NCBI GenBank assembly: GCA_012295275.1
Contig: CM022677.1
Location: 23,011,253 to 23,075,252, forward strand
From: Chrysomallon squamiferum
Taxonomy: Eukaryota > Mollusca > Gastropoda > Neomphalida > Peltospiridae
Length of the DNA stretch: 64,000 bases
Reading direction: 5' to 3'
The notes under the pieces are model-generated. The model saw only the letters and a list, made by a program, of their open reading frames with translations, was not told the origin of the DNA and ran no database searches. Below are positions 398 to 64,000 of the stretch, piece after piece; the stretch's first letter is position 1; every line of letters starts with the position of its first letter. Made by a program: the position numbers and the translations under genes.

Positions 398-2543
398 CTC
401 GATGTTTCTGTACGAACAGTTTTCCATCTGGCTTGCATCCACCGCAGAACCCACCGCATCGACCCATAAAGAACTGTCGAGTAGACATTTTCACTTTTTG
501 ATAAGGACTTTTCCCAAATGGTTTCCAGGACGTCTATAAAACATGATACAAAATGTATTCCTTGCCGTTTTCTTTTCTTACTCTTTGTGTCCGTACTCTG
601 CTGTTAGTTTTGTCTATTTTCAGGTGGACACTCAAGAAAAGAAATCAGCATTATATGTTTGCCTTATATGTATGCGTGAGAGCATAACTGATTCTTGTTC
701 TGAGAATATGATTATAGAACACAGAAGCAGCCAGTTAGCGACTTGGTAATAAAGTAAAAATAGAAATAAATAAATAAGTATCGCTACCTTGTCAGCCAGA
801 ATGAAGTTAGTGTATCTGAGATCAATGAAAAACGCGCCTACGACTCCACACCGATTTCTCTTCCCTTTCCGGTGAGCGACGAAACAATCTCTGGCTACGC
901 CATAAGGAATGGGGGCACTTCCGGTGGTTTTCGCAAACGTTTGGTCATGGATTAGAATTTCCATCGTCTTAAAAAAACAAAGAAATGTCTGTGCTGAATT
1001 TATCTGCCTGCTGTATATTGACGTTCTGTATACGATCTACACTGTTAAAGTTGCCAAGTTCTGTGGTGTGGTATTTAATAAACAGTATATCGTGAAGTAT
1101 TGTATATTAGTACATAGTAAATATTAATAATATGCAGTGTATTGTTTAGTATCATAAATATATGGTATACTGTAATATGTTACAACCTAATAACACATGC
1201 AACATGCAGTGAGTTACTTAATATAGTGCAGTGCAGTGTAATGCAGTTAACGCAGTACATGCTAGTACAGTTGTTTTGCTGTAGTGTAATGAAGTATAGT
1301 TTGGTACATGTTATTCAATGTAATATATTGCGCAGTACTTTTTTGTAGTGCAGTATATTACAGGTAACACAGCTACGTAATTTGACCAGATTAAACACAA
1401 TGGTTTAGTGTAAAGTCTCTTTAATTTGGAGAGACTGAAATGTAGTGAAGCTTGGCGTAAGTTATTTCAACACAAAACTTTGTATTAGCATGGGAATATA
1501 ATCTAAAGATACGAATATTTAGTAGCAGTGTATCAATATATATATATATATATAAACGGTAATATCGTCAATGAACCATTTTGTAGATCTACTCGAAACT
1601 GTTAAAGTGGTGCTGTATATGCAACGTCATACTTACATCCATGAGTATGGCTATTTTTGTGTACACTGTTCTTGCAGGGCGAAATGGAAGCGGTCCTGGG
1701 GGTGGTTTGTCACAGTACAAATCTGGATGTTTCATGATGTTGGGATTGCTCAGTGTGATGAAGCTCTTTGGTGTGTTTCTCATGTTGTAACAGTAAATGA
1801 ACACGCTCTGATTATACATGAGCGGTGGGTACAGCTTGTACTCGCCGTCCTCTTCAATTCCTCTTCTTTCCTTTAAATCATTGCAGTCTTTAGGCTTGTC
1901 TGTGGACGAGATATCAGCTTTGTAGTTAGGTATACACATATAAATTTGTCTGTTTAGAAAAGTGTGGCACTTAAGCAGACTGATTAAAACCATCCTTCAC
2001 CTGTGTGCACTCACATATACACGCAGAAAAACGATTCAGTAGATTATACGTATAATTTGTATATATATATATATATATATATATATTTGTGTATTTGTTT
2101 GTGTCTTCATACGTAAGCATATATATATATATATAAAATGATGTATGTATGTATATACGTATATATCTATGTATGTATGTCTCTTTCTCTAATATATATA
2201 TATATATATGCTTCTAAATTCAGTCTTCATTTCACTAAGATATTTTTAAAATTAAAAATACTTACACGTTACTGTCGTTGAGTAAACAAAAATTAAAAAG
2301 AAAAAAGATAATAAAGCAATTAATAATTTTAATAATGTTGTATTTTGAAAGAATATATCACACACAGAAACACACACACACACACACACACATCCATTTT
2401 ACAAGGACTATATTATTTATCGTAATAATAATAATAGTTATGTAATAAATAAATTAATTAATACATTAAAATATCAACATACAAACGGCATGCTTTAGAA
2501 ATGTTTGAATAATTAGAACTATCCTTGCCAGAGTGGTTTTCAT
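398..2543 (-). CDS. Gene 1: GON-domain cell-surface protein, partial (runs off left edge)
   Basis: Exons in coding order: leader 2543-2483 ([20 protein letters not shown], a signal peptide), probable 6-nt microexon 2271-2266, GON exons 1899-1637, 967-788 and 533-398. Lengths 263, 180 and 136 are identical to those of genes 3 and 4, and phases join cleanly (1, then 0, 0, then 1). The translation carries the GON signature: PKDCNDL, DGEYKLYPP, VFIYCYNM, a middle PIPYGVARDCF block and the cysteine-rich RCGGFCGGCKPDGK end. GON domains are known at the C-terminus of ADAMTS9/20 and GON-1; here the domain directly follows the signal peptide. The last exon ends in phase 1, as where a TSR exon follows in genes 3 and 4, so the TSRs, membrane helix and tail should lie left of position 1. 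It is divergent from gene 2. Confidence 0.85.
2266..2271 (-). other. Probable 6-nt microexon of gene 1
   Basis: On the minus strand an acceptor (cgacag) is followed by six bases, taacgt, and a consensus donor gtaagtat. The same arrangement lies between leader and first GON exon in genes 3 and 4. Inclusion adds two codons in frame (VLTYKP instead of VYKP). It is inferred from splice-site conservation only. Confidence 0.55.
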
Positions 2544-3039
2544 CTTGGTTTGTTCACTAAAAAAAAAAAAAAAAAAAAAAAATGTAATCGTAATATAATT
2601 ATAGTTAGCTATCACCATATTTTTCGTATAACAAAAGGAAAATAAAATGGATATAAATTAATTTAAAATTGTCTGATTTAAAATATTAGTATTATTATAG
2701 TAATAGTAGTAGTAGTAGTAGTGGTAGTGATTATGATGATCAATGAAAATTCAGTATATTATATTAATGTTTAGACACTTTTTTATTATTAGTAGTAGTA
2801 GTAGTAGTATAAGCTGTCATTATACATTATAAAATTGAAAACTCTGTTTATAGTTATGAAGTAAGTACTTTTTATAACAAATGTGCTCACTCTGTTGTAT
2901 TTTGTTCATCAAATCGGCTCAGAGACATCCCTGCATCCTTTGTTTCCTGAACGTACCCGTCATATAAATATGATTGTTATCTATTGAATATAATTAAAAC
3001 TTATTCATCTGTCACGCTATATTTATTAGTGAAGCAAAA

Positions 3040-3200
3040 TATATGACGTCACTTTACTAAATACGTCATTATTAACATGCCGAATGTAAGCAGAATTTGG
3101 GTTGTCAGTGACTGATATAAAGCTAACGAACAATTCCACCTGTAAAATCTGCGAACGAAAACGCCAGCGGACAACTAACAATTTATCGTTCGTCAGACCT
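3040..3200 (-). promoter_or_regulatory. CRE-type promoter module of gene 1
   Basis: Read on the minus strand, AATGACGT (3070-3063) is followed by the palindrome TGACGTCA (3051-3044), then an AT-rich stretch. Upstream sequence to about 3200 aligns with the region upstream of gene 3: both contain GTTCGC, GGAATTGTT and TAGCTTTAT in the same order before the paired TGACGT sites. TGACGTCA is the consensus CREB/ATF site. It sits about 500 bases upstream of the leader exon. That it is a promoter is inferred from conservation and position. Confidence 0.6.
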
Positions 3201-61580: not shown

Positions 61581-61736
61581 AATATCATCATAATCAACCT
61601 GATCAGCATCAATATCACCATTATCTATTATTATTATTATTATTATTATTATTATTATTATTATTATTATTATTTATTATTTCAGGATATCGTTTCAACT
61701 ACAAATAGGAAGAGTTCAGTTCTGAAGTTGTAAAAT

Positions 61737-64000
61737 ATGGAAATTTTAATGTGGTTTGAAATCTTCCTTGGACTAATACTGTTTGCAGGTTCATAATTTT
61801 GCGAATATCGTTTTTATTTGTATATTTTCCGTTTCTCTATTTACTGTCTGTTTATTAATACAGTAATACTTTTTCTGTGCTACTTACACCTACTAACTTT
61901 TAATACGATTTCTTTTTTCAGAATGCACAAATAGTACCTTAGTTCGTAGCTTTGTGTCATCGACGAAAGGTAATTATTATACTCTATACATACATTTATC
62001 CGTAATAGTATATCAGAAAAAGTTTGATTTTATTCTTATTCATAATGACTGGAAATAGCTATGAAAAAAACAAAAACAAGTAATAACAATAATGAATCCG
62101 TAAAAATGTTTAAAAGTAAAGATCTTCATTTAACAAAAGAAAAATCCCCAAAGAATCAAAAATAACATTTTTCTACTTTTTTATATTTTTTATATTTTTT
62201 TATTTTTTTTTTTTTTTATTTTTAATATTTTTTTTTTTGCAGTAAATGAAACTAAATTAAACGAAACAGAAGGTAATTATAATAATAACAACCATAGAGA
62301 TGGCGAAAATAAATCAAGCAGGTACTGTAACAAATGCAACAAAAACAATATATTGTACAATAAAATATTGGTTTTTTTTAAATTCTCACACACACACACA
62401 CACACACACACACACACACACACAATTAAGCACTCGCCATATAAAGTAAAATCTCTCTTACATGTATCTACAAACAAGTAATTGTATTTAACGTTTTACA
62501 CATTTCTCTTGAACTGTCGCTGATTCAGAAATTGGTGTGTGGGCATCTTGGAAGATATACTTTGGAAAATGTAATCACGTTTGTCGTCAAACAGTTCTTC
62601 TCGTTAGGGTCTGCCAGCAGACTGGAAAGAAACAGTGTCGAGGTCTAAAAAAAAAGAGATTCTTTAGAACTTGTACACTTGGTAGATGCCAGAGATGTAA
62701 GGAATTTCTGTGTATTTCTGAGCTATATATACATGTATGTATATGTGTATGTATATGTATGTATGTATGTATGTATGTATGTATGTATGTATGTATGTAT
62801 GTATGTATGTATGTATGTATATATGCATGTATGTATATGTGTATGTGTTATGTAGGTATATATATGTATGCATGTATGTGTTATGTATGTATGTATGTAT
62901 GTTTGTATACAGTGGTATGTGATTCATTAAGTATAATCGTATTATTTTGTGTGTGTGTGTGATGGTGTGTGTCTGTGCGGTGTGCGTGTATTTAGTAAAT
63001 GTGCAAATAATAAGCATGGCTATTTTTATCAATATATTTGTTTATTGATTTAATGATTTATTGATTTATTTTATTTTATTTATTGTTTTATTTATTTTAT
63101 TTATTTCTTATTCAGATCATCATAAACCAAGAAGAGCGTCAGAAGGTAGAATATCTTAACATTAATGAACTCAGAATTTATTAAAACCAACACACTGTAA
63201 CAGTCTTATTACTTTCAAAATCTAATGACTGTTTAACATTTTATGAAATTATCAAATCTTGTTCAATACGTTTTATAAAAAATATACACAAATTAGAATG
63301 CTACGGTACTTAAATTATTGTTTCTCTGTTACGGTTTTACCTTATAATTCTGAAAATATTAAATATATATATGTTTTTAAAATTTATTTATTTATTTTTA
63401 TCTGTAAGGCATGTGGTCAAACTTAATGTGGATGGCCTTAATAGCTGTTGCTGCCTTGACGACAGTACTTCCAGCAGTATCAGTCTTTATGTACAAGTAA
63501 AATTTTTACTGTATTGGTTTCATTTAATTTTTAAATATTTTTTTTTTAATGATAGTTAATTCCAATTTTGGCCTTATATGTTTTCTTGTCTGTGTCCATG
63601 TACACAGTTATAAATAACTGCGTATGTGTGTGTGTGTGTGTGTGTGTGTGTGTGTACTTTAAATCAAATGAGAACATAAGCACACAACAGATACGCACAT
63701 ACACACACGATATAATTATATATATATATATATATATATATATATATATATATATATATATATATATATATATATATATCTCAATAATACACAAATACAC
63801 ACACCACATGTATGTGTGTGTCTATATATATATATATATATATATATATATATATATATATATATATATATTTATATATATCTCACATTCATACACCTTA
63901 CAGTTAATTTGTTTATTTATCAGGAGGAGAAGGAGGAGGAGGCTTAGGCACCGCGAAGACAAAGAAAGGCTTACAGGACGTAAAAACATTCTAGAAATTG
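61737..64000 (+). CDS. Gene 9: single-TSR transmembrane protein, partial (runs off right edge)
   Basis: Exons: 61737-61788 (leader [17 protein letters not shown]), 61922-61969, 62243-62272 ([11 protein letters not shown]), 62529-62696 (TSR, 56 codons), 63116-63145, 63409-63496 (transmembrane), 63924-64000 (tail, open at the window end). All phases join. The TSR reads [11 protein letters not shown] with six cysteines and a very basic [11 protein letters not shown] segment. The helix is [19 protein letters not shown]. The tail starts with K, six arginines and LRHRED, a strong stop-transfer signal. The leader and its 5' flank resemble those of gene 8 (GAGTTGGAAAATATG against GAAGTTGTAAAATATG). 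The family tail motif should lie beyond the window. Confidence 0.78.
62753..62822. repeat. (TATG)n microsatellite
   Basis: About 70 bases of TATG directly after the TSR exon of gene 9, continuing as degenerate TATG/TG to about 62970. Confidence 0.93.
63717..63878. repeat. (TA)n tracts before the tail exon of gene 9
   Basis: Two TA runs of about 60 and 50 bases flank a short CA-rich spacer. Confidence 0.93.

Follow-up and report, generated by a model that had tools for sequence, protein, structure and literature searches.

A tandem cluster of nine predicted GON and thrombospondin-repeat membrane receptors in the genome of Chrysomallon squamiferum

The stretch of Chrysomallon squamiferum contig CM022677.1 analysed here (64,000 nucleotides, positions 23,011,253 to 23,075,252 of the forward strand; hereafter the window, numbered from its first letter) contains nine gene models of one family in mixed orientation, in the order A(-), B(+), C(+), D(-), E(+), F(+), G(-), H(+) and I(+), built from splice sites read by hand and with a script. 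Seven of them (B to H) are complete, whereas two (A and I) extend past the window edges, and the count of nine given in an initial annotation of this DNA holds. The family would consist of type I single-pass receptors with a signal exon, an optional distal GON domain, an array of thrombospondin repeats (TSRs), an optional stalk of mini-exons, a membrane helix and a tail. Every complete model has a predicted signal exon, one to eight TSRs, a single membrane helix and a short tail, as that annotation had described; the parts it called optional are confined to three of the nine models for GON (A, C and D) and to G and H for the stalk. By itself, this nine-receptor architecture is highly probable. 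When architecture and function are taken together, an uptake- or adhesion-type recognition receptor family is about an even bet, with a scavenger or adhesion recognition role as the most likely use.

The GON domain of A, C and D is encoded by three exons joining into one 193-aa domain, which the Pfam GON model (PF08685, cut-off 22.6 bits) recognised at 97.6, 101.4 and 109.1 bits, respectively. Identity to the domain of D is 59% for C and 61% for A. In gene A (398 to 2543, minus strand), which the left edge cuts, the signal exon at 2543-2483 is followed by GON exons at 1899-1637, 967-788 and 533-398, and any TSRs would lie beyond the window. Gene C (7846 to 16784, plus strand; 739 aa without one broken exon) has its signal exon at 7846-7906 and GON exons at 8768-9030, 9473-9652 and 10401-10536; in gene D (19922 to 29370, minus strand; 843 aa) the corresponding exons are at 29370-29313 and at 28291-28029, 27592-27413 and 26832-26697. 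In both C and D the GON domain is N-terminal, before the TSRs, and the helix and tail come last. The five complete genes B and E to H showed no GON, and none was seen in the portion of I inside the window. The ratio of nonsynonymous to synonymous divergence (dN/dS) in GON was about 0.10 to 0.48 for the pairs with finite dS, and the domain is, to judge from these values, evolving under constraint. A relic of a fourth GON start was also observed just past the last GON exon of gene A and on the other strand (282 to 329, plus), with 83% identity over 48 nt to the start of the first GON exon of D (E 3e-9 within the window).

GON has been described mainly in ADAMTS9, ADAMTS20 and the GON-1 of C. elegans, and the genes studied here resemble these GON-ADAMTS proteins in having a full GON domain together with TSRs. 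In GON-ADAMTS proteins, however, GON stands at the C-terminus, after the TSRs, whereas here it is N-terminal, the proteins are membrane-anchored by prediction and no protease motif was found. Neither HE[LIVFMS]xH nor HExxHxxGxxH occurs in the 2,793 six-frame fragments of at least 15 aa, a scan that an intron-split motif would escape and beyond which A and I continue outside the window, and Pfam scans of the models gave no protease either; the earlier observation that no protease is visible was thus borne out. The accompanying statement that known GON proteins are secreted proteases is too strong. In the accessible part of the report on C. elegans GON-1, the GON domain acts without the protease, and it is the GON domain, not the protease, that restores secretion (PMC4517882). 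Moreover, an amphioxus protein (P0121), named 'ADAMTS 9-like' by its source, has a GON domain that is 30% identical over 95% of the query, with fibronectin type II and no protease domain among its Pfam hits, although its gene model may be partial. It differs from the present genes in its other partner domains, no TSR being among its Pfam hits. Unless that model is partial, GON may occur outside ADAMTS in another phylum. Membrane receptors with GON at the tip would separate the action of GON from the protease. A profile of GON had no match among the sequences of solved-structure chains, and AlphaFold2 on P0121 with a second protein, P0122, tried as a route to the structure of GON, was rejected as unusable (mean predicted local distance difference test score of 29.7).

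A WxxW/cysteine scan of the six-frame fragments gave 27 matches, namely 25 TSR exons and two spurious ones, and a profile built from 15 repeats of C and D recovered all 25 exons together with a truncated 26th. The nine TSR exons of B and E to I, which were outside the profile, scored from 15.6 (H, the weakest) to 65.8 bits, and the best control fragment reached 9.9 bits among 61,554 (20 first-order Markov copies and the reversed window). Pfam TSP_1 gave 62 bits in C (first 467 aa) and 61.2 bits in D, and nothing in B, E, F, G and H at E up to 1. The Pfam comparison that the initial annotation had proposed was therefore positive for GON in A, C and D and for TSP_1 in C and D, and negative for TSP_1 in the other five; because Pfam is silent there, the TSR calls in those five genes depend on their match to the window profile, on the six cysteines and on exon structure. 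When 24 TSRs were aligned, leaving out one frameshifted and one truncated copy, WxxW, one arginine and five of the six cysteines are present in all 24 and the sixth cysteine in 23. In the second TSR of C (11630-11818) one of the six cysteines is changed to tyrosine, and one cysteine should remain unpaired.

Gene C has seven in-frame TSR exons (10873-11061, 11630-11818, 12197-12391, 12795-12983, 13896-14084, 15072-15248 and 15628-15804) and a frameshifted one (13378 to 13573, plus strand; 196 nt against 195), which was excluded from the model. Gene D has eight (26157 to 20923) and a truncated copy of the first of them (24803 to 24985, minus strand), in which the 5' part with WxxW is lost and the GT donor kept, scoring 59.1 bits to the TSR profile. 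Gene B (4376 to 6567, plus strand; 235 aa) has its signal exon at 4376-4436 and TSRs at 4685-4861 and 5348-5524 (56.5 and 65.8 bits). Gene E (31203 to 34300, plus strand; 190 aa) has a tentative signal exon at 31203-31257 and one TSR at 31560-31733 (44.7 bits), gene F (35802 to 40323, plus strand; 269 aa) a tentative signal exon at 35802-35853 and TSRs at 36227-36403, 37619-37834 and 38189-38368 (24.1, 32.9 and 35.9 bits), and gene I (61737 to 62696, plus strand), cut by the right edge, a weak signal candidate at 61737-61788 and a TSR at 62529-62696 (22.2 bits).

In a FastTree analysis, with groups of support above 0.7 considered, the repeats of C and D fell into a first class adjoining GON (support 0.93), a pair of middle classes (0.94 and 0.93) and a membrane-proximal pair also present in B (0.95 and 0.85); E was placed on the membrane-proximal side, unsupported in its own right, and F to I grouped loosely (0.77). 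In the membrane-proximal classes and in E to I, the second cysteine is followed by a shorter loop. Since short-loop classes occur in B and E to H as well as in C and D, one to three short-loop TSRs, the helix and the tail are common to all seven complete members. GON and the longer-loop repeats are, by this comparison of sequences, an added distal part of C and D, only the GON being visible in A. A strictly O-fucosylated TSR family was considered and rejected, the motif being found in only two TSRs.

The exon structure suggests how such ectodomains could vary. All 59 introns are GT-AG, which was a condition of model building, and 46 of them are in phase 1. Exon-by-exon reading gave the phases of the TSR and GON exons, as well as those of helix and tail in B, C and D; for the signal, stalk, helix and tail exons of E to I, phase was a condition of the search. 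The in-frame TSR exons are of phase 1-1, the GON introns follow 1-0-0-1 in all three cases (A, C and D) and the junction of helix and tail is in phase 2, as read in B, C and D and by search in E to H. TSRs, stalk exons and the GON unit are flanked by phase-1 introns and are therefore modules that could be lost, gained or skipped in frame; this predicted modularity is new here.

The stalks of G and H consist of six exons each, 27 to 48 nt long and all of phase 1-1, between TSR and helix. Gene G (42945 to 50220, minus strand; 224 aa) has a tentative signal exon at 50220-50175, a TSR at 49433-49263 (27.0 bits) and stalk exons at 48428-48402, 47505-47470, 45859-45815, 45657-45610, 44797-44756 and 44443-44396. 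In gene H (52298 to 60195, plus strand; 202 aa) these are at 52298-52334 (tentative), 53088-53246 (15.6 bits) and 53631-53669, 54877-54912, 56756-56785, 56932-56961, 58682-58711 and 58918-58944. The filter by which stalk exons were found, combining splice scores with at least 45% of S, T, N, P, D, E, G or Q at thresholds chosen while viewing this window, gave seven phase 1-1 matches on the coding strand of G (one belonging to the TSR) and seven on that of H (one, a possible mini-exon at 52754-52777, precedes the TSR and is not counted in the 202 aa). In 200 Markov copies per span the mean was 0.19 for G and 0.205 for H, with a maximum of 2. Applied to the opposite strand, the same filter matched nothing in the spans of G, H, F and D and twice in that of C; in other phases it gave one match in G and three in H. 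The stalk mini-exons of G and H are far above chance. Gene F has one possible mini-exon (39251-39289, plus strand), not counted in its 269 aa, and the candidates of I (61922-61969 and 62243-62272) lie before the TSR, not after it. A tandem copy of about 500 bp, 85% alike, was also seen within a stalk intron of H (57407-58571).

If such modules are skipped, one gene could yield many ectodomain lengths, as in the schistosome MEGs, whose very small symmetrical exons are described in the available text as spliced in or out (PMC4350168). Very small symmetrical exons are common to both, but in the present genes, which encode predicted membrane receptors and belong to another family, they are limited to the stalks of G and H, and they do not make up most of the coding region, which is the mark of a MEG.

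One membrane helix after the ectodomain was predicted from hydropathy and exon phase in all seven complete models. The signal exons, for which hydropathy and a phase-1 donor were the criteria, are mutually consistent in A to D and single predictions in E to I. Similarly, the helices of E to H were picked by position and phase among many hydrophobic candidates. All seven tails contain [FYH][DE]Nx[AVT] followed by a hydrophobic residue: FDNKAM in B (helix 5889-5985, tail 6372-6567), YENKAI in C (16262-16358, 16607-16784), FDNKVI in D (20752-20653, 20210-19922), FDNVAV in E (32470-32563, 34051-34300), HDNPTF in F (39666-39741, 40215-40323), YDNPAY in G (43320-43245, 43080-42945) and FDNIAF in H (59741-59819, 60054-60195). 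Only G matches the full (F/Y)xNPx(Y/F) endocytic signal. According to the accessible text of PMC11228867, signals of this kind are read by PTB proteins, and CED-1 carries FQNPLY. The G tail thus shares its signal with receptors of the CED-1/LDL-receptor type, whose ectodomain is unrelated and which six of the seven tails match only in part. The shared motif in the seven predicted tails, with the full endocytic signal in G, is new here.

The exons of this locus have also been copied recently, as the initial annotation had proposed. In gene C a block of two TSR exons with its intron is present in tandem copies (11597 to 14100, plus strand) that are alike in exons and introns, at 90.7% over 947 bp and 92.3% over 427 bp; the introns are 93.1 and 96.3% alike, as much as the exons, so that the duplication is recent. 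A like block copy in gene D, that of the truncated exon, is 90.4% alike over 479 bp to 25636-26102. Copying between the opposed genes C and D is suggested by their middle TSR exons, with dS of 0.02 to 0.29 against 0.56 to 2.8 in the rest of the genes (GON exons 0.81, 0.83 and 2.84; first TSR 0.82; membrane-proximal TSRs 0.56 and 0.89; tails 2.08). One middle exon is 94.9% identical between C and D (dS 0.023), with flanking introns at 69% and 42% over about 60 nt. In another pair (C_a2/D_a1) the exon is 93.1% identical and the flanks are still 80% and 86% alike, so that copying there extended beyond the exon; for the remaining middle pairs compared, dS is 0.205 to 0.29. The likeness is probably best explained by conversion or exchange between the two genes, and strong constraint on silent sites is an alternative for the exon with dS 0.023 alone. 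Copying of exons within genes, with probable exchange between opposed C and D, is new here. Moreover, the frameshifted copy in C and the truncated copy in D mean that exons are also lost. dN exceeded dS in two of 31 exon pairs (C_b1/D_b2 and D_b1/D_b3), which have few changes, and positive selection is not claimed. The introns also contain tandem repeat arrays, of 67 bp in D (21603-22295) and of 34 bp in C (9979-10285).

Based on these results, the receptors could work as follows. The TSRs and GON would bind ligand on cells, matrix or microbes, and the tail would dock PTB-type or clathrin adaptors controlling uptake and surface display, most clearly in G. Units that are duplicated, lost, exchanged or skipped without frame shift would change reach and binding, while helix and tail stay constant. 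In the accessible parts of the sources, BAI1 binds phosphatidylserine through its TSRs (PMC7098104), and TSR proteins, whose repeats carry glycosaminoglycan-binding sites, are candidates for symbiont recognition in sea slugs and cnidarians (PMC7663992). On the other hand, GON may here serve trafficking rather than binding, in line with the portion of the GON-1 report available (PMC4517882). A role in immunity could only be inferred. It is possible, if doubtful, that the locus represents an undescribed kind of invertebrate recognition locus, in which membrane-bound GON/TSR proteins are diversified by exon duplication, exchange between opposed neighbours and combinatorial skipping of TSRs and mini-exons, and carry an uptake-type tail.

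Several points weigh against recognition and uptake. The tail pattern was written after the tails were known, and its frequency in shuffled tails (0.055 to 0.215% of copies) flatters the motif. The tails of B, C and D (by homology) and H (by open reading frame) were found without it, and those of B, C and D are homologous to one another; the tails of E and G were found through it and that of F was selected visually from 14 candidates, with knowledge of the motif, so these three are not independent. As an endocytic signal the F tail is a partial match with H at the first place, the tails of B, C, D, E and H have no proline and those of B to E also no final aromatic residue. The strict O-fucosylation motif C..[ST]CG occurs in one TSR of C and one of D. 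Finally, dN is below dS in 29 of 31 exon pairs, with no clear diversifying selection.

Other functions were weighed as well. Adhesion or guidance receptors of development or the nervous system, like UNC5 or semaphorin 5 and with no immune or uptake role, are unlikely here yet deserve serious attention. TSRs with a helix and a short tail suit an adhesion receptor, and a query of two TSRs from D matched thrombospondin-1, properdin and UNC5B/UNC5D among solved structures. However, the Pfam scan of B and D to H gave no death, ZU5, Sema, Ig or seven-transmembrane domain, and guidance receptors are usually single conserved genes rather than fast-turning tandem arrays. The mixed-orientation tandem array, the exon copying and the decaying exon copies would fit gamete or self/non-self (allorecognition) receptors, which are tandem, variable and fast evolving; the constraint on GON at the dN/dS given above argues in the other direction, and we consider this reading improbable.

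It is somewhat more improbable that the main role of the members with GON lies in the secretory pathway, where GON would aid the exit of membrane or secreted cargo from the endoplasmic reticulum and the TSR array would be cargo or scaffold. The rescue of GON-1 secretion by GON, as far as PMC4517882 is accessible, would agree with this, but no GON was found in B, in E to H or in the part of I that the window covers. Very improbable, finally, is a wrong division into nine genes, the exons belonging to fewer, larger or secreted genes such as an ADAMTS-like gene past the left edge or soluble TSR proteins. This could be suspected because A and I run off the window, each signal exon of E to I is a lone weak prediction and the helices of E to H were chosen by position among many hydrophobic candidates; against it, all seven complete models have a helix of their own and a tail that ends in a stop, the genes are of mixed orientation with matching phases, and the unspliced six-frame fragments contain no protease motif. 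Recognition receptors for uptake or adhesion remain the preferred reading, and the window would offer a compact locus for testing receptor diversification through symmetrical exons and exon exchange in an animal.

Among described proteins, the nearest in form are BAI1, UNC5 and the 'TSR + TM' class, as the latter appears in the accessible text of PMC7663992, all with a TSR ectodomain and a membrane helix. The present proteins differ from these in their GON domain, mini-exon stalk and shared [FY]DNxA-like tail, and no seven-transmembrane, Ig or death domain was found in the six proteins scanned whole. The 461-residue GON and TSR region of D matched 1,399 proteins; TSR matches dominate the best 120 of these, none of which has PF08685 in its precomputed annotation, and the best named matches (P0001 to P0006), with identities of 38 to 47%, are from mussel, scallop, oyster and abalone. 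When only the GON region of D was used, proteins of about 464 to 1,475 aa yielded 420 candidates, none at E up to 1e-3. With a three-row GON profile, of 1,022 candidates among proteins of about 106 to 338 aa, two were significant at E up to 1, both from amphioxus. The search needs shared 5-residue words and has length limits that put long ADAMTS9-like proteins beyond reach, so that the same architecture could exist elsewhere. Among the open-licence papers listed, titles and abstract starts gave nothing on GON/TSR membrane receptors, the main text of PMC12549020 does not contain 'gon-adamts', and in the available part of PMC4224354 GON is only a table entry. Apicomplexan TRAP-like adhesins were considered and rejected, as the genes are intron-rich and GON is, to our knowledge, an animal domain.

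The window is AT-rich (22 to 35% GC per 4-kb step) and intron-rich with many simple repeats, and a tRNA scan of it found none. In all four genes A to D a pyrimidine-rich stretch and an AG stand 13 to 15 nt upstream of the ATG (2543, 4376, 7846 and 29370), which could represent either an intron of the 5' untranslated region or a spliced-leader acceptor. That all recognisable genes belong to one family, as was first stated, agrees with the lists of open reading frames and with Pfam scans of selected sequences (ten open reading frames, models A, B and D to H and the first 467 aa of C), which is less than the window-wide claim. Among 152 selected fragments outside the models, the longer of which (4,891 characters) were read by eye, one possible scrap of a retroelement was the only find. 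The fragment at 61467-61560, which reads LQILDPVHNQAFELCLGASRT and has no Pfam match, presumably resembles the RNase H region of non-long-terminal-repeat retroelements.

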